From: Saprolegnia diclina VS20
Lineage: Eukaryota > Oomycota > Saprolegniomycetes > Saprolegniales > Saprolegniaceae
Direction of reading: 5' to 3'
Assembly: GCF_000281045.1 (NCBI RefSeq)
Contig: NW_008246114.1
Span: 200,508 to 234,109, forward strand
DNA: 33,602 nucleotides
Below the pieces are notes generated by a model. It saw only the letters and a program-made list of their open reading frames with translations, searched no databases and was not told where the DNA came from. This document shows, in pieces, positions 20,744-30,139 of the stretch (position 1 is the stretch's first letter; the number at the start of each line of letters is the position of its first letter). A program made the translations under genes and the position numbers.

Positions 20744-21447
20744 CGTCGCTCTGTCCCGTCGAGGTCGGGAAACCGCCGATGCCGATTGGCTCGCTTAGCG
20801 CGGCGTGTGATTGGCCGAATGCATATCCTACCTCCAAACACTGACGACGAGCAGTCGACTTGACAGCATCCGCCATGTACCAACAAGTGTCCGCCGAGCG
20901 ATGAACAACGACATGTCGCTCGTCAAACGCGCTGCCATGTCATTGGTGTCCCTGCCCACGGCCTTGATGGCAGCTGGCGACCTTGCCTTTTTCGTAAGAA
21001 AATAGTGTACGAATCGCTGTTCATGAGGGTTGTTCCTTGGCTCCATTATCATGCATCAAGCGCTGGCACCGCCGCGTACGCAGGCGTCTGATGGAGCAAG
21101 CATGAACCCTCGAGCTCGTGTACGAACGGCGACTGCCATTCGCACAGCCTTCCCATCCAGACGCGTGCGCCAGACCCATTCCAGTACTACAACCACCCAC
21201 GCCCAACGGTACTTGGACGTCGGCGCACTTGTCGAGTATGCTTCTCTGTTTTGTACATAGCGTACGGCAACAAGAAGACCGCAACGACGCATGTACAGGC
21301 GCCTCCATCGCTGTTGCAAGTGCGTTCTCACACGATTTCCGGTCCAATTTGCACTTTCTTCCAACACTATTTCAGAACGAAGGCTTGTAGAGTTTGGATA
21401 TTGCTGCCCGGCCACTACGGAATCGAAGACCAAGCCAGCTCATCAAG
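20744..21447. promoter_or_regulatory. divergent intergenic region, WD40/coiled-coil gene and myosin
   Basis: About 700 bp between two ATGs pointing away from each other. Besides the CCAAT pair on the WD40 side I see no TATA box, RNA gene or repeat. Several open frames cross it on both strands without recognisable motifs. It should hold both promoters and 5' untranslated sequence. Confidence 0.55.
20785..20814 (-). promoter_or_regulatory. two CCAAT boxes upstream of the WD40/coiled-coil gene
   Basis: CCAAT on the minus strand (read as ATTGG on plus) at 20785-20789 and 20810-20814, about 42 and 67 nt before the ATG at 20743. NF-Y-type CCAAT boxes are common in eukaryotic promoters; function here is inferred from position and from similar clusters near 30.2 and 31.1 kb. 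Confidence 0.45.
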
Positions 21448-24400
21448 ATGGAAGGCGCCAAGGTATACGTCCCCGACGCCAAGGCGGTGTGGGCGCCGGC
21501 GACGGTCCTCCGCGCCGAAGACGGCGGCAAGCGGCTCTTGCTGCGCGTTCTCGACGAAGCCACCAAAACGAGCGCCGACAAGTGGGTCGACCTGCGCGAC
21601 GAGGGCATGCCCGAGGCCCTCCCGCTGCAAAACGTGCTCGACGCCAAGCATGGCGCGGCGACGCTCCAGGACGTCGGCGTCGAAGACATGTGCTCGCTCA
21701 ACCATCTGCACGAGCCAGCGATCGTCTTCAACCTCCGCACGCGCTTTGCGGTGCAGTGCCCGTACACGTACACGGGCAGCATCGTGGTCGCGATCAACCC
21801 GTACGCGTGGCTCAACCTCTACTCAAAGGAAACGCAGCGGCTGTACGCTGGCGACCGCTCCGGGCTGCCGCCGCACGTCTACGCGACAAGCGCGGCCGCG
21901 TTCGAGTCGATGGCGCTCTACGACCGCCCGCAGAGTACGACTCGGATTCCATTGCCCACTGCGCTCACATTGCATTGCATCTAGGTATCCTCGTCAGCGG
22001 CGAGTCGGGTGCAGGCAAGACCGAGACCGTCAAGATCATGATGGAGCACCTTGCGAGCCTCAGCACGGACCCAAACATGAGTATCATCGACAAGGTGCTC
22101 AAGTCCAACCCGCTCCTCGAGGCCTTTGGCAACGCCAAGACTGTCCGGAACGACAACTCGAGTCGGTTTGGCAAGTTTACGCAGCTGCAGTTTGACGCGG
22201 ACCAGCGCATGGTCGGCGCAAAATGCCGGCACTACCTCCTCGAGAAGTCGCGCGTCATCGGCCAAGCCGAGTACGAGCGCAACTACCACATCTTCTACCA
22301 GCTCAAGGCGTCAAAAGAGCCCGAGTGGGCCCTCGCCGAGACGACGTTCACGTACCTTCGCGACGATGCACCGCTGCTTCTGGACGGCGAGACGGACGCA
22401 ACACGATACCAGACGACCCGTGACGCGCTCTCGACGATCGGCGTGTCATTCGACGAGCAAATGGCGCTGCTCAACGCCCTCGCCGGCATCCTGCACTTGG
22501 GCCAAGTGGCATTTGCGACCAAAGCCGAGAACGCCGAAGAGTGTGCGCCCCTCACGTCGTCGCCGCACTGGGCGCACGCGTGTCGCCTGCTCGGGTTTGA
22601 GGTCGACCCGACCGCCTTGGGAAGCGCGCTCTGCAGCCGGACGGTCAAGGCGCGCATGGAGGTCTATGTCGTGCCGTTGACGATCGACCAAGCGACGGCC
22701 AACCGCGATGCACTCGCCAAAGAAGTGTACGCGCGCCTCTTTGGCCACCTCGTGCAGCGGGTCAATGAGAGCATCTCGAACGACGAGGCCATGGTCGGTC
22801 ACATGGATCTGCTCGACATCTTTGGCTTTGAAGCGTTCGAGACCAACCGGTTTGAACAGTTTTGTATCAACTTTGCCAACGAAAAGCTCCAGCAAAAGTT
22901 TACCCACGACGTCTTCAAGAGCGTCCAGGACGTACGTCACGCTTGATACGTTGATAGTATTTGTGTTGTTGATGATATATGATAGGAGTACACGCAAGAA
23001 GGGCTTGGCTGGACGTACGTGAGCTTCCGCGACAACCAAGACATGCTCGACATGCTCGAAGCGCCGCTCGGCGTCATCTCGCTCCTCAACGACGAGTGCA
23101 TTCGACCGATGGGCAACGACCTCGCGTTCTGCTCCAAGGTGCTCTCGACGCATGACGCAAATCCGCGCTTGGACAAGCAGCGCGCGCGGGTATCTATCCA
23201 TCTATCCATGTATCCATCTATCCGAATCCTCAAATCGATCGGTAGCTGAGCGCAGCGCACTTTGCGTTGCGGCACTATGCAGGCACCGTCATGTACCACG
23301 TTGAAGCGTTCGTCGATACCAACAAGGACGCGCTCTCGTCCGATGTCCTCGCGCTGCTCGGCGCCAGTGCCAACACCATCATCGCCAGTGTCTTTGAACC
23401 GGCACCGATCAAGAAGCCGAGTGTCCTTGGCGGCCGCCGCCAGTCGACCGCGTCGTTCATGGGTACATGCTCTCTCGATTCTTCTTTTTGTTTCAACTTG
23501 ATATGTTTAGGCGAGACGGTCATTTCCAAGTTCAAGGCGCAGCTCACGGGTCTCATGGCCGACATTAGCGATACGCAGACGCACTACATTCGGTGCATCA
23601 AGCCCAACAGCGCAAAGTCGAGCACGCTCTATGACGTGCCGGGCGTCATCGAGCAGCTGCGCTGCGCCGGCGTCGTCGAAGCCATTCGCATCTCGCGTGC
23701 GGCATTTCCCAACAAAATGTCGCACGAACGCTTCTTGCAGCGGTTCTTTGTCATGTGGAAGGATGACGCGCCGCCGAAATCGGGCGCGACGGTCGCGACA
23801 GCGTGCGTCACGGTCGCGTCCGGGCTGCTCGGCGCGCCCGAGTCCAAGGACACGTTCGTCATGGGCTCGCACCATATGTACTTTGCGGCCAACGTCCTCG
23901 AAGACCTCGAGCACCGGCGGATCCTCTTTGTGCAAGACCGTGCGATCGCGATCCAGCGCGTCTTCAAAGGGTACGCCTCGATACCTCGATACCTCGATAC
24001 CTTGATACATTTGGACGCGATGAGACTTATCAAACACTTGATATATAGGTACCGCGTGCGCAAGATGTATACGCGTGTGCGCTCGGCCATTGTTCGGCTG
24101 CAAGCCAACTTTCGCCGCCGCCAACGCCGCCGCCGGTTCCAGCTCGTGCGCCGACGCTGCATTCTCTTGCAGTCGCTCTGGCGCGGTCGCCACGCGCGGT
24201 CGGCGCTGCATCAGCACAAGCTGTACACGAGCGCGGTTGTCTTGCAGCGCAACTGGCGCACGTACAAGGCCCAAAAGTCGTATTTGCGACTTCGCGCCGC
24301 CGTCGTCGCGATCCAAGGCCAAATCAAACAACGCAAGCTCGAGGCCAAGCGCAAGCTCGAGGCGGACGAGCTGGCCAAGCAGCAGAGCATCGAGCACGAG

Positions 24401-25394
24401 CTCCACGTGCTGCAGATTCGTTTGGACGAGGAAAAGGCCATGCGCGCCCAAATGGAAGCCGCCAACTCGACGCTCCAGCAGCAGCTCCAAGACGAGCAGC
24501 GACCGTCGTCGCTCGCGCGTGGAAGCGCCGACGACCTCTCGCTTCTGGTACGACTCGATGTTTGTGTTTTCGTCTTTTTCGTATTTTTCGTATTTTTTGC
24601 GTATTTTTTGCGTACTTTTTTCAAAATGTGCGTGTTTGTGTCGTGAACGGGCGACTTGAACGCTATGCGTAGGACGACTCGGGCCGCATGCTCTCGACGC
24701 TGCAGCTGCAGGTCACCAAGTGGCGCGACCTCCACGCGTCGGCGTCCCACGAGCTCGAGGGACTTCGGTCGGAGAACAAGCGCATCAAGGAAGCGTACAC
24801 GGCGGCCGGCGCCTCCTTTGCAGCGCTCAACCAGCACAACAAGCAGCAGTCGAAAGCGAATCTGCGTCTCATGAGCACCCACGCGGCGCTCATCAAGAGC
24901 CAAGAGGAGAAGATGAAGAAGTACATCAAGCAGGTCCACGACCTCAAGGAAGAGGTCCGGCTGTCGAAAGCCTCGACGCTGCACGACGATAGCACCCAAG
25001 ACGTACGCCTTTGATTCCTCTCTGGTCGTGATGTAGCACTGTGGTGTAGCATGTGCTTCAAGTGCTTCGGGATGCCCGCGTGTCGCCCGACGTCCTGGCC
25101 AAAGTCCGCACCTGCTTTGACGGCAGCGCGCCAACGTACCGTCTTGTTGTTGAAGCAGCTCACATGGAAATGCGATACGACTGTAGGCACGAGGTGGAGA
25201 TCGACGAACGGCACTCGGACGCGTACTCGATCGGCGAAGGCTCGACGGCGACGACGGCGGCAACGACCAACTGGGCCCACCCGCAGGGCAAGATGCGTCC
25301 GTCGAGCACGAGCTCCATGTACTACGACGACGAGAAGCACCGCAAGTCCAAGATCGGCGGCATGTTCAAAAAGATGTTCAAGAAGGACGATTAG
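21448..25394 (+). CDS. unconventional myosin heavy chain
   Basis: Actin-based motor, about 1145 aa in nine exons: 21448..21934, 21985..22931, 22986..23189, 23246..23462, 23511..23970, 24049..24547, 24673..25002, 25050..25135, 25187..25394. Residues 1-60 look like an SH3-like subdomain. The motor head shows the P-loop GESGAGKT (about 168-175), switch I (NDNSSRFGKF), switch II (DIFGFEAFE, about 440-448) and HYIRCIKPN. The residue 16 positions before DALAK is Glu (ARMEVYVV), fitting the TEDS rule for a motor that needs no head phosphorylation. Four or five IQ motifs follow from about residue 760 (AIQRVFKGYRVRK and later LLQSLWRG, VLQRNWRT), then a coiled coil to about 1040, so dimerisation is likely. 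The tail is short, ends in a basic patch (KKMFKKMFKKDD) and lacks FYVE, FERM or WW domains. The last intron (25136-25186) is 51 nt and its removal keeps the frame. Oomycete myosin class not assigned. Confidence 0.93.
23191..23223 (+). repeat. tetranucleotide microsatellite in myosin intron 3
   Basis: An impure run of TATC/CATC units fills the first half of intron 3 (23190-23245). It lies just after the donor and could vary in length between strains. Confidence 0.8.
23976..24007 (+). repeat. four tandem 8-bp units in myosin intron 5
   Basis: Three exact copies of CCTCGATA and a fourth reading CCTTGATA. The last unit matches the TTGATA motif found in many introns of the window, suggesting slippage from an intron element. 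Confidence 0.85.
24548..24672 (+). repeat. T-rich expanded myosin intron 6
   Basis: A 125-nt intron with direct repeats of TTTTTCGTAT and then TTTTTTGCGTA. Borders (GTACGA and GCGTAG) are fixed by the flanking coiled-coil frame. It resembles the T-rich long introns at 15804-15960 and 28760-28883. Confidence 0.75.
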
Positions 25395-25534: not shown

Positions 25535-26106
25535 CTATTCGTAGTTGACTATCGCAATTCCCCAAATATTCTTGGCGGAATGTGATAATTACTTGTGGCG
25601 CGGCAGGGTATCGTAAAGAGTGGGCGACTTCGCTTGTTGAACGTGCGTGTATACACGCCAAAGCCCCGGTAAACGCGGAAAAGTGAGGTCATTTTGCCGT
25701 AAAGTGATCATTTTGACGGTACACTTGTGTGAATTATGGTACGCGTATGTGGTGCAACACCATGTCTCTGACTCGTTCCGTCTCCCTCGCCTGTTCCGTC
25801 TCCCTCGCCTGTTCAGTCTCCCTCGCCTCGTCCCCGTTCTGGTCTTCTCCATGCAGGTCCTGCGTGTCTTTTGTATTACGTGTCTATGACAATATTGACC
25901 AGCTCATCCATAACTACATAATTCACTCTCCAATTTGCATCACTGTGTTCAAGCCTCCTCTCAGGGCTTGGGTCTCAGCACGGCGGTGAAGCATACGTAC
26001 GAGCAGTTGATTGACGAGACACATCCTTGATCCCTCCTGGTAAGGCAGCTTGCTCAATGGCGTCCGTCGATACCGTCCACCACGGACTCCTCTTCCTCTC
26101 TCTTGG
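25535..26106. repeat. repeat unit, copy 1 (segments A, X, B)
   Basis: About 572 bp in three parts. A is 25535-25747, X is 25748-25995, and B starts at 25996 and ends at about 26108, sharing its last bases with copy 2. A and B recur at 26107-26307 and 26304-26416, while X is unique here. A carries conserved stretches such as TTGGCGGAAYGTGATAATTA. X contains three tandem 18-bp units (25775-25828) rich in CTCCCTCGCC. No open frame with protein character spans the unit. It could be a non-autonomous element or a local duplication. Confidence 0.8.
25775..25828 (+). repeat. three tandem 18-bp units
   Basis: Unit GTTCCGTCTCCCTCGCCT, exact in the first two copies and with one change in the third. It lies within the X block of repeat copy 1. 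Confidence 0.85.
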
Positions 26107-26416
26107 CTATTCGTAGTTGACTATCGCAATTCACCAAATATTCTTGGCGGAACGTGATAATTACTTGTGGCGCGGCAGGGTATCGTAAAGAGTGGCGACT
26201 TTGCTTGTTGAAAGTGCGTGTATACACAGTAAACGCGGAAAAGTGAGGTCATATTGCCGTAAAGTGATCATTTTGACGGTACACTTGTGTGAATTACGGT
26301 ACGCGTACGAGCAGTTGATCGACGAGACACATCCTTGATCCCTCCTGGTAAGGCAGCTTGCTCAATGGCGTCCGTCGATACCGTCCACCACGGACTCCTC
26401 TTCCTCTCTCTTGGCT
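26107..26416. repeat. repeat unit, copy 2 (segments A and B, X missing)
   Basis: Tandem copy of 25535-26106. A' (26107-26307) matches A closely, with scattered substitutions and a ~12-bp gap near 26227. B' (26304-26416) is nearly identical to B. A' runs straight into B' through GTACGCGTACGA, so the X block was either deleted here or inserted in copy 1; short GTACG homology lies at both edges. Sequence from 26417 to the stop of the next gene at 26545 is unremarkable. Confidence 0.8.
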
Positions 26417-26544: not shown

Positions 26545-29500
26545 TTAGCTCATGCTGGCGCCGTGATCACGCGGACGGAGCTTCTTGTCGACTTTGGTGA
26601 GGTCGCCGACGTTGTCCGAGATGACGCCCGAGACCCCATGCATCTTTTGAAACTGCACCTTGTCATGGCCCGTGTTGTGGTTGCCCCACGTCCAGAGGTG
26701 CAAGTGGTCGTTGCGGATGTGGCGGATCCACTTGGGCTTGGTGAAGAGCGGGAGCGAGTTGGTCACAATGCCCTGGAGCTGCTCCATGCGGCTGAACGGG
26801 ACCGCCGTCTCGAGCGAGATGGTCCGCACATCAGGCACAAGCCCCGTGATCTAGCACAATGCTGTGGGTCCACAATGGAGACGAGAATACGTACGTCGGT
26901 GCCGCACGTAAGGAAGAAGACAGGGTACCGTGTCTGCTTGGCCCGGAGCAGGACGCACACGTCGGGCTCAAAGCATGAAAAGACAATGTTGCGCCGGCCG
27001 TTGGCGTGCTCGAAAATGCACGCAAGGATGTCGTCCAAGTACGCATTCATCTCGAACGCGTCGAGGCTCCGGAGGCATGGGGCGTCCGGCGGGTCCACTG
27101 GGTACTTGATTTCGACGTTGAGACCCACGTAGGGGGGTACGTGCGTCAGCAAGTTTTGCAGCGTCGGAAAGAGCTCCGAGAGCGCCGTCCAGTCGACCTT
27201 GGTCGTGGAAGGGGTCGTCGTCGTCGGCGGGGTACGGGGGGTACGGGTCGACTTGGTCGTCTTTGTCTTGACGAGCTTGAGCCAGTGCTTGCGCACGAGC
27301 TGCTGCAAGCGCGGACCGTCCGTGACCGACTTGCCGTGACGCCACTCGACGTTGTTCAACTGCGCGAGCGTCAAGTCATGGAGCCCCGTCTTCGTGAACG
27401 CCCCCGGCGACCGCCCGCGACGGTCTTCGAGCGCCGCCTTGAAGAAGAAGTCGTGGTACACCACCGGGACGCGGTCCTTGGACAGTTGCACGTCGAACTC
27501 GATCCAGTCGGCGCCGTGGAGGCCAGCAACGACAAAGGACGTGAGCGTATTTTCGCGAATGTGCGACGTACGATACCCGAGTGCCTAGTTCAACATCATA
27601 AATGCGTTAAAAACTATAAAATCAAAACGAAACAAGAAGGCGAGCGCTACCTGGTAGTACGATCGACCGAGGCCGCGGTGGCCCATGTCGAGCGCCGGGC
27701 CGTGCAGCCATTGCGTGCGGAACGCCGATGCGAGCGTGTTGTCCTTGTGCACAAATGGCTTGAGGTGCAGATACCGCAAGAGCAATTCGCCGACGACTAC
27801 GCCCGCACAAATGACAAGTTGTCCATGATGGAGCGTTATACAAGTACCCGAAAACGACGGCGACAGCAACGGTGCTGAGAGCGCGCCGTTGGTGCGGTGG
27901 AGCTGGGACGCCACGAGCACACTCGTGCCAAGCACAGAGTCCGTGGTCACATCGACCACATCAATGGCCACCGACGCCGACGCCGGCAAATGCCCGAGAC
28001 GAAACACCTAGCTTCTCATCAGGTCGATATACCTCAATGGCGACAGCGTACCTGCAGCGTGTCTTGGGCCACGAACGGCGTCTTGCGCGACGGTGTAGTC
28101 GTCAAAAGCGGCAGCCCCGACGCGACCACGTCGGCGTGCGCTGCCAGCAGCGACATCGCGTCAAGTCCGTGCGCGGCCATGACTGCGGCAAAGTCGTCAC
28201 GGTGCAGACGCAAGAGCGTCACCGCGCCCTTGGCGACGACCTGCGCACTGCGGTTCGCGCCGCTCACGAGGGCCTACGCTGACACTGAGCACAAGCAACG
28301 GCACCATATCGCCGCACCAGTTCGCCCAGGTACGCGCCCGGCCCGAGCTCGAAGAAGGTAGCCGTGCCCTGCGTCGTCGTCGGGCCCTGGACGGCGACGA
28401 CACCCGCGTCGATCAGGATCAAGTGGTGGCGGTCTTGGCCAATCGAAAGAATCGGCTGCGTGTCCGCAAACGTGACGCGCTCGAGCTTGGCCGTGAGCTC
28501 GTGACGCACGTGCGTCGGCAGCGTCGTCAGAAGCGACACAACGTCGAGTCCTTTCGATAGCAACGTCGGGAGCGGCAGCGCATTGCCGAGAAGTTCGCGA
28601 TCCAAATGCGGCGTCGGCGTCGCGACGTCCACCGCGCGCAAATCCGCACAGTACGGTGCGTGGACAGTCGACGCCGATGGCTGCCCCAGGACGCGCGCTT
28701 GGAGGTAGATGGACCGCTGCACCTTGTCGGCAAAGGTCACGGACGGCTTCTTGTCAAAGCTACATGCTCGTCGTCAGAGTCGTCCCGATACAACACACTG
28801 TAACATCGTGTCCAATACAGGAAATATACAGAAAAATACAGGAAATCGACAGAAAAAAGATAGAGAAAGAACAGACCACGCACCTTCCAAAGACGAGGCG
28901 GAGCTCGGGCGCCGCACCCGGCGCGAGCCATTGCCCCTACATACCCAGCATGCATGAGACAAAATGGTAGTCGGATCGGAAGGCGTACGTCGATGTGGGA
29001 CTGGCCATCGCCGAGCAACCGGTTGTCCAAGCCAAACCACCCATCGAGGATCTACGCCTTAGATTAGCACCGCAGTAGTGCGCGTCGTATACATACCGGC
29101 GGCGCCAAATGCGCTGGCGTAAACGCTTGGAGCTGTGCAAACTGCAAACTCGTGTGCGCAGCTTCGTGCTGCACGCGAATGTACCGCGCACTGGTCGTCA
29201 ATGGCCACTCAAACTGCGTCGCCGCCGAGGCAAACCTAGTCCCATAAGGCTACCATTGGCCATGGACTAGAACAAGAAGAGCAATGTCTACCGCATCGAT
29301 GCCAGCGCTTGCTTCTTCGCCGCGTCCAACGACAGATTGGCGAACGGCGTGTCGGAGAGTAGCACCCACACCGGCACGAGGCGGTCCAAGAACATGTCTT
29401 GGCGGTTCCAGAGCACGAGCTTGGTGAGCGGCGTGCTCTAAAGCGTAGGTAGTACAAGGTTGCAGCATTAGTCCAAGGCCATACCGCGAGCAGGTCGACT

Positions 29501-30139
29501 TGCCAGTACGGCTGGTCTTGCACGGTCGTGCGACAGCACATGTGCTCGAAATGGCCGCTCGTGTTGCCGTTGACGGCCAGCTCCGGCACGCGGGGGCCCG
29601 GCACTAGTCAGCGTCGTCAGTAGCATCAGAACGTCAAGGCTAGGCGCGGATGTACATACCCGGTCCCGCGGGCGCCACAAAGATCGAGCTTTGCGTGACC
29701 GGTTTGTGCCTACGCGCGCCACGTCGCATCTGTACATAGTCGACAGCAAGAGCTTACAGCGCCACGTTGGTCCCGCCGGCGACGCGCGTGCGGTTGCCAG
29801 GCAACGACTCCCAGAGCACAAGGGCACCGGAGCGGTCCAGCACAATGTACTTGTACTCGATCAGCGCGTACATGGCGACCTCGAGAGTCGCCTCCCAGAG
29901 CGTCGATGCGCCAGCGTGCTTCTTGAGCGGAACTAGAGAAAGCATGAGCGCGGCGATTGCCTGGCGGCGTCGCATTACCCGCTTTGGCCACGTCCCATGC
30001 GCCGAGCTCTAAGCAGGACGATGAGATGCTGCGTGGACGACGAGAGGAGCGTACCCGAGACGTTGCCGACGACGGCGACGTAGCGGTCGTCGGCGGTGAG
30101 CGGCGCCGCCGTGTGGATCTGGAAGAGGACCGCGGCCAT
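26545..30139 (-). CDS. glycerophosphodiester phosphodiesterase with CBM20, discoidin-like and cyclic-nucleotide-binding domains
   Basis: Fifteen exons, 941 aa, every phase consistent: 30055..30139, 29979..30008, 29758..29932, 29660..29709, 29485..29603, 29292..29437, 29097..29235, 28989..29051, 28884..28936, 28318..28759, 28052..28273, 27848..28007, 27651..27796, 26895..27584, 26545..26850. Residues 1-97 are a CBM20 glycan-binding fold (ELGAWD, LWEATLEV, EYKYIVLD, LWESLPGNR). About 115-248 resemble an F5/8 type C (discoidin) domain (ELAVNGN, PYWQVDLLA, LVLWNRQDMFLDRLVPVWVL, ARYIRVQHE). About 358-475 are a cyclic-nucleotide-binding domain whose phosphate cassette GELALVSGANRSAQV keeps the Glu and Arg. 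About 598-930 are the GDPD catalytic domain: GHRG (His601), Glu621, Glu639, Asp641 and His654, with a Thr/Pro-rich insert. CBM20 plus GDPD is the plan of GPCPD1/GDE5, which hydrolyses glycerophosphocholine; the extra domains suggest cAMP or cGMP control (inference). No signal peptide is seen, so it is probably cytosolic. Confidence 0.88.
28760..28883 (-). repeat. T-rich expanded intron in the phosphodiesterase gene
   Basis: A 124-nt intron with degenerate repeats of ATTTCCTGTA on the minus strand, between exons 28884..28936 (donor GTGCGT) and 28318..28759 (acceptor ATGTAG). Confidence 0.7.

Follow-up and report, generated by a model that had tools for sequence, protein, structure and literature searches.

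A GPCPD1-type glycerophosphodiesterase of Saprolegnia diclina with an F-type-lectin-like domain and a probably nested cyclic-nucleotide-binding domain

The gene and its outer domains

We analysed a stretch of 33,602 nucleotides (nt) from Saprolegnia diclina VS20 (contig NW_008246114.1; G000:C47:200508-234109 in a 54.15-Mb, 169-contig assembly), called the window below, and one gene on its minus strand, at 26545..30139, that encodes a GPCPD1-type glycerophosphodiesterase. Our verdict is that this is a real gene with real domains, of an ordinary enzyme class and with an unusual oomycete architecture. A preliminary description made from the letters had proposed a single phase-consistent frame of 15 exons, and we rebuilt that frame exactly. 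It runs from an ATG at 30139 to a stop at 26545 and gives a coding sequence of 2826 nt and a product of 941 amino acids (aa) without internal stops. All 14 introns are GT-AG and 44–124 nt long, and retention would add an in-frame stop for 7 of the 14.

The same chain is found in other species. SPRG_11756 of Saprolegnia parasitica (P0001, predicted, 939 aa) is 90–91% identical to the 941-aa product and collinear with it over every exon junction; the sole length difference is one 2-aa gap in a Thr/Pro-rich linker. Further full-length collinear predicted proteins occur in Achlya hypogyna (69% identity) and Aphanomyces stellatus (47% identity). Independent annotation thus supports the exon chain, through orthologues that are themselves gene predictions. 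A search of the 54.15-Mb assembly with P0001 found no second gene of the same architecture: nine of its 14 matches lay inside the gene, and five, on other contigs, covered the cyclic-nucleotide-binding (CNB) part only. Three further places in the assembly match GDPD and no more of the architecture.

The catalytic GDPD domain occupies aa 595-930 (26581..27698), with a Pfam match over the cut-off at aa 601-922 (E 3e-39). The HRG, EN, ExD, HD and ExK residues, which we take to be the catalytic ones, are all present, in agreement with the preliminary description. At the other end of the protein, a CBM20 starch-binding-type domain covers aa 3-91 (exons 1-3, 29775..30133). Its assignment held as well, with a Pfam CBM_20 score of 56.7 bits against a cut-off of 23.3 (E 2e-15), and the nearest solved relative of this part is the glucoamylase starch-binding domain. 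CBM20 residues W33, K66 and W79 are invariant in all 35 oomycete or organism-unlabelled proteins that have sequence there (16 of 51 are gapped). Binding of glycogen by the CBM20 of GPCPD1 is mentioned as unpublished work in PMC11138102.

An F5/8 type C domain, similar to F-type lectins, follows at aa 95-243 (exons 3-7, 29112..29765). The F5_F8_type_C_2 profile matched aa 123-223 with E 7e-6 and 27.1 bits, slightly under the cut-off of 27.8. In eight relatives scanned, the same profile exceeded its cut-off in three (P0003, 35.1; P0055, 38.1; P0031, 32.6), fell below it in two (P0021, 27.7; P0016, 17.0) and gave no match in P0057, P0056 and P0054; P0057 has a sub-cut-off match to a sister F5/8 profile. 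The gene model of P0054, from Aphanomyces invadans, has no F5/8 match, which may reflect loss or an annotation error. The closest solved relatives of this part are solved F-type lectins (best FBP32, E 2.6e-10), and similarity to F-type lectins, CBM47 and NedA-like F5/8 domains extends across the jelly-roll. The discoidin-like domain named in the preliminary description is therefore supported by the lectin matches and by the three relatives, although its own Pfam score remains below the cut-off.

The glycan targeting proposed there is doubtful for this domain. The fucose motif of F-type lectins is given as HX24RXDX4(R/K) in passages of PMC5712786; the 941-aa product has R165, D167 and R172, but T139/T140 stand where the His is expected. 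The RXDX4R part is present in Saprolegnia and Achlya, and the motif Asp is in none of the aligned non-saprolegnialean sequences. We therefore rejected a canonical fucose lectin. The border of the CBM20 and F5/8 domains (aa 65-142, 29518-29855) ranks among the most invariant regions of the protein, the catalytic domain aside, as judged from four Saprolegniales. Foldseek and VIA lists were filled by GDPD and CNB chains and were uninformative on the CBM20, F5/8 and C2 folds.

The split C2-like domain and the nucleotide cassette

The preliminary description had placed four domains one after another. The four do occur in that order, but a fifth was overlooked, the C2-like middle domain of GPCPD1/GDE1, and the CNB domain appears to be nested within it rather than strung like a bead. 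The second half of the C2_GDE1-like domain (aa 506-576, strands 6-10, 27753..28060) gave a Pfam C2_GDE1 match to profile positions 70-149 of 150, at 24.0 bits against a cut-off of 27. Among relatives, P0031 (32.6) and P0058 (33.1) score over the cut-off, P0054, P0021 and P0016 score under it, and P0003 has no match to this profile. The putative first half (aa 249-328, strands 1-5, 28636..29051) lies on the far side of the CNB domain, which with its helices spans aa 337-492 (28100..28611). In animal GPCPD1 relatives, C2_GDE1 is unbroken over the middle region, as in P0064 (aa 139-309, profile 4-150).

We built a hidden Markov model (HMM) from 20 non-inserted GPCPD1 middle regions and searched with it at a relaxed threshold. 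Of 11 oomycete proteins tested, 10 had matches in the right order on both sides of the CNB domain; the eleventh, P0054, had a second-half match only. The 941-aa product matched with E 3.8e-14, contributed by the second half: model positions 23-58 aligned at aa 254-299 (independent E value, i-E, 0.017) and positions 162-221 at aa 532-591 (i-E 4.6e-12). Second-half matches all had i-E 3.1e-6 or better. Profile-profile alignment with hhalign gave the second half a probability of 98.6 and the first half alone a weak match (probability 43, E 2.5e-4).

Strand order in predicted structures points the same way. The model of P0001 (mean predicted local distance difference test score, pLDDT, 84.2; predicted template modelling score, pTM, 0.88) has strands at 268-270, 280-285, 294-296, 304-311 and 323-326 before the CNB domain (337-492) and at 506-513, 520-527, 533-539, 548-556 and 562-573 after it. 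The model of the mollusc protein P0069 (pLDDT 85.8) has an uninterrupted domain with strands at 129-131, 138-144, 149-151, 161-169 and 197-202, then at 226-232, 238-246, 258-265, 274-283 and 288-299. The ten strands of P0001 pair in order with the ten of P0069, strand 5 (323-326 with 197-202) by order alone; a strand of P0001 at 249-253 is extra and has no counterpart in P0069. Given this match to the uninterrupted protein, the likeliest site of the CNB domain is the loop that joins strand 5 to strand 6 of the C2-like sandwich, a nesting that is supported but not proven. As judged from strand correspondence rather than coordinates, the two C2 halves would pack as one unit.

The order CBM20, C2_GDE1-like domain, GDPD is that of animal GPCPD1/GDE5/EDI3, with identical catalytic residues, and it bears out the GPCPD1-like enzyme class first proposed. 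The product is most likely a cytosolic glycerophosphocholine phosphodiesterase; we infer both its substrate and its location. Three animal proteins scanned (P0064, P0069, P0071) differ in having no F5/8 or cNMP_binding match, and the middle domain of P0069, unlike that of the oomycete protein, is uninterrupted. Triparma P0056 has CBM20 and GDPD matches only. Fungal Gde1 (SPX-ankyrin-C2_GDE1-GDPD) shares C2_GDE1 and GDPD at the C terminus, whereas the two proteins scanned (P0068, P0084) carry SPX and/or ankyrin in front and have no CBM20, F5/8 or cNMP_binding match. The CNB domains of PKA regulatory subunits, PKG and cyclic-nucleotide-gated channels differ in setting, as here a single CNB domain is apparently nested in the C2-like domain of a metabolic phosphodiesterase.

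The CNB assignment itself is clear. The product has the CNB fold, and the Pfam cNMP_binding profile matches aa 382-469 with E 9e-12 and 45.3 bits against a cut-off of 27.5. Its phosphate-binding cassette, GAYLGELALVSGANRSAQVV (aa 428-447, 28235..28338), is interrupted by intron 10 (28317-28274), which splits the core GELALVSGANRSAQV (residues 432-446). The cassette contains G432, E433, L434 and A435, then R442, nine residues after the Glu, and S443, with the spacing of PKG I-beta. According to PMC3080414, the cyclic phosphate and the ribose are held in PKG I-beta by the Gly182-Ala185 amides together with Arg192 and Glu183, and Thr193 gives a preference for cGMP. The residue after the cassette Arg is Ser in Saprolegnia, Thr in PKG and Ala in PKA.

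We scored the cassette in related proteins. All five usable Saprolegniales (the 941-aa product and four others; the partial Thraustotheca protein P0009 was dropped) retain Gly, Glu, Ala and Arg, and the intact look of the cassette in the preliminary description was thus borne out. Four of 45 other oomycete or organism-unlabelled sequences were dropped for gaps, and the cassette Gly occurs in none of the 41 usable sequences from outside Saprolegniales. Two of these (P0022, P0046) apparently lack the domain and seem misaligned there. In the remaining 39, which are not independent (P0031 and P0058, like P0043 and P0044, are same-species pairs), Asn takes the place of Gly in all 39, Gly or Ser that of Ala in 34, and Lys that of Arg in 11; 37 retain the Glu and 16 the Arg.

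The cassette is also modestly better conserved than its surroundings in Saprolegniales. Identity between the 941-aa product and Achlya is 80% in the cassette versus 57% over the other CNB positions, and 70% versus 39% for A. stellatus; in 23 other oomycete or organism-unlabelled proteins the cassette is barely more conserved than the rest (0.62 versus 0.57). In a sliding-window analysis the cassette was among the best 20-residue stretches within the CNB domain, tied with starts 423-425. It is not exceptional protein-wide: 68 of 574 pre-GDPD windows, mostly at the CBM20-F5/8 border, are equally or more invariant. Our reading of this pattern, on modest statistics, is that nucleotide binding is under selection in Saprolegniales and that members of the other lineage share a departure from that state. 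Because Lys/Arg and Glu are often retained in that lineage, altered binding beyond mere loss is possible there; in trypanosomatid PKAR/PKA, changes at such CNB positions can switch the ligand to nucleosides, as reported in PMC10959531.

Relatives and neighbouring features

Taking the C2b-GDPD part of P0001 as query, a homologue search found 442 proteins at E <= 1e-10. Among the best 120 of these, precomputed Pfam annotation placed CBM20, F5/8, cNMP_binding and GDPD together in 26 proteins and cNMP_binding with GDPD in 41. All 28 of the 41 that carry an organism label are oomycetes, and 13 have no label. The labelled proteins come from Saprolegnia, Achlya and Aphanomyces in the Saprolegniales and, outside this order, Phytophthora, Nothophytophthora, Peronospora, Hyaloperonospora, Peronosclerospora, Plasmopara, Globisporangium and Lagenidium. 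The cNMP_binding score is marginal in P0031 (27.6 versus 27.5) and under the cut-off in Pythium insidiosum P0016 (16.6). Since at least 26 listed homologues share the four-domain architecture, we rejected the idea of an oddity peculiar to the window.

The preliminary description knew of no described enzyme with this combination. Our search of the literature likewise found no paper describing it, supplementary domain-combination tables, where a bare entry may exist, being beyond its reach. The combination nevertheless belongs to a widespread oomycete family that already has database names, which among the listed homologues include 'Glycerophosphocholine phosphodiesterase GPCPD1' and 'gde1'. CBM20/CBM47 proteins of Phytophthora parasitica, including one that has a discoidin domain, are reported in PMC4176579; they may include the same family, and a locus noted there could not be tied to it. 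Oomycetes are known to be rich in novel domain combinations (PMC6033456, PMC3681718). The present enzyme resembles their 'bigrams', such as GPCR-bigrams, in fusing common signalling and metabolic domains, but the accessible parts of these two articles do not mention its combination.

A search with the F5/8-CNB part alone found six proteins, namely P0001 and P0002, both relatives of the 941-aa product, and four that have F5/8 without cNMP_binding or GDPD; it scored only the best 7,992 word-sharing candidates, so absence elsewhere does not follow. Both P0055 and P0057 have F5/8 matches (sub-cut-off in P0057) and no Pfam cNMP_binding match. P0055, a GPCPD1-like protein of 1111 aa with CBM20, F5/8 and GDPD, has an F5/8 part that resembles that of Saprolegnia and may show the state that preceded insertion of the CNB domain. 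A tree left P0055 and P0057 unplaced (supports 47 and 27) and did not settle the order of the F5/8 and CNB gains.

A plus-strand myosin gene (21261-24643) converges on the glycerophosphodiesterase gene; two open frames there match Myosin_head, the first with E 1.8e-105 and the second with E 2.1e-38, and an IQ-motif match (E 6.2e-6) lies in the second. Between the two genes, at 25535-26416, lie three pairs of direct repeats of 113, 89 and 79 nt (97–99% identical, spacings 308, 572 and 560), which suggest a recent local segmental duplication. Elsewhere in the assembly, at G000:C30:172863-173825, we noted at least three CNB domains in one reading frame that is listed as open for 4686 aa.

Possible nucleotide gating and its alternatives

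How might the CNB domain act? We propose, on sequence grounds, a GPCPD1-type enzyme with an inserted CNB domain, predicted to be gated by cAMP or cGMP in Saprolegniales, and give this proposal close to an even chance. Its firm ground is the gene model, the domains and their order, the catalytic and cassette residues and the lineage pattern. An ancestral enzyme with the order CBM20, C2-like domain, GDPD would have gained, on the line toward oomycetes, an F-type-lectin-like F5/8 domain after CBM20 and a CNB domain in the loop between C2-like strands 5 and 6, although we can only infer the order of these gains. Because the Saprolegniales cassette retains its residues for contact with cyclic phosphate and ribose, cAMP or cGMP would bind there. 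The C-terminal helices of the CNB domain (478-492) run into strand 6 and the second C2 half, which precedes the catalytic barrel; a nucleotide-driven helix movement would therefore shift the C2-GDPD interface and could alter activity. The genome contains class III cyclase domains (19 exon-level matches) and CNB domains (91 matches), and cyclic nucleotide signalling is therefore probably available in the organism. With the cassette intact in Saprolegniales and altered in the other oomycete sequences sampled, the gating predicted in the preliminary description is plausible in the former and doubtful in other oomycetes.

Several observations weigh against this proposal. The first-half HMM matches on which the nesting partly depends have i-E 2.4e-4 at best (P. 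infestans P0048) and 4.3 at worst, with one significant alone, and P0051 shows a chance match of similar weakness elsewhere in the protein (i-E 4.4). The excess conservation of the cassette is modest: in four Saprolegniales, 12 of its 20 positions are invariant versus 23 of 79 elsewhere in the domain (Fisher p 0.011), and the difference weakens when A. invadans P0054 is added (8/20 versus 15/79, p 0.049), in a test that counts related sequences as independent. Among the five usable Saprolegniales, residue 443, the position of the PKG selectivity Thr, varies (S, S, S, R, T), as does residue 444 (A, A, V, V, I). Finally, the other oomycete sequences sampled retain the domain though its cassette is altered, which implies a function besides canonical nucleotide binding, or drift. 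We therefore consider it a substantial possibility, short of even, that the nested domain is no cAMP/cGMP sensor in any oomycete but a structural or docking module or a sensor of another small ligand, the Saprolegniales cassette being merely less eroded. The replacements in the 39 other sequences and the continued Pfam recognition of the domain in eight named genera outside Saprolegniales, despite its marginal score in P0031 and sub-cut-off score in P0016, fit this explanation, as do the ligand change in trypanosomatid PKAR and a p value of 0.049 with five sequences. It is harder to reconcile with the cassette of Saprolegniales, which stands out from the remainder of the domain by its conservation, as drift would not produce, and which retains every one of the residues in contact with phosphate and ribose (Gly, Glu, Ala and Arg).

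An ordinary GPCPD1 housekeeping enzyme, in which CBM20, F5/8 and CNB only localise the protein to storage glucan, membrane or partners, seems improbable to us; the invariant CBM20 residues and the glycogen binding ascribed to GPCPD1 would suit it, but it leaves the conserved Saprolegniales cassette unexplained. Very unlikely indeed is an artefact in which the exon model wrongly fuses two adjacent genes. Intron 9 (28883-28760), the longest at 124 nt, exceeds the remaining introns (44–66 nt), and every orthologue is a gene prediction; full-length collinear proteins in other species nonetheless span both sides of intron 9, and the C2 halves flank the CNB domain on either side. We rejected the artefact on the strength of the collinear orthologues.

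To our knowledge, no GPCPD1 enzyme is under direct second-messenger control. If the Saprolegniales enzyme does answer to cAMP or cGMP, it would represent direct, kinase-free control of phospholipid-head-group turnover by a second messenger. The occurrence of intact and altered cassettes within the same architecture offers a natural comparison for ligand change in CNB domains and for regulation by a domain inside a domain. Annotation by name alone, as 'GPCPD1', conceals two extra domains across many oomycetes.

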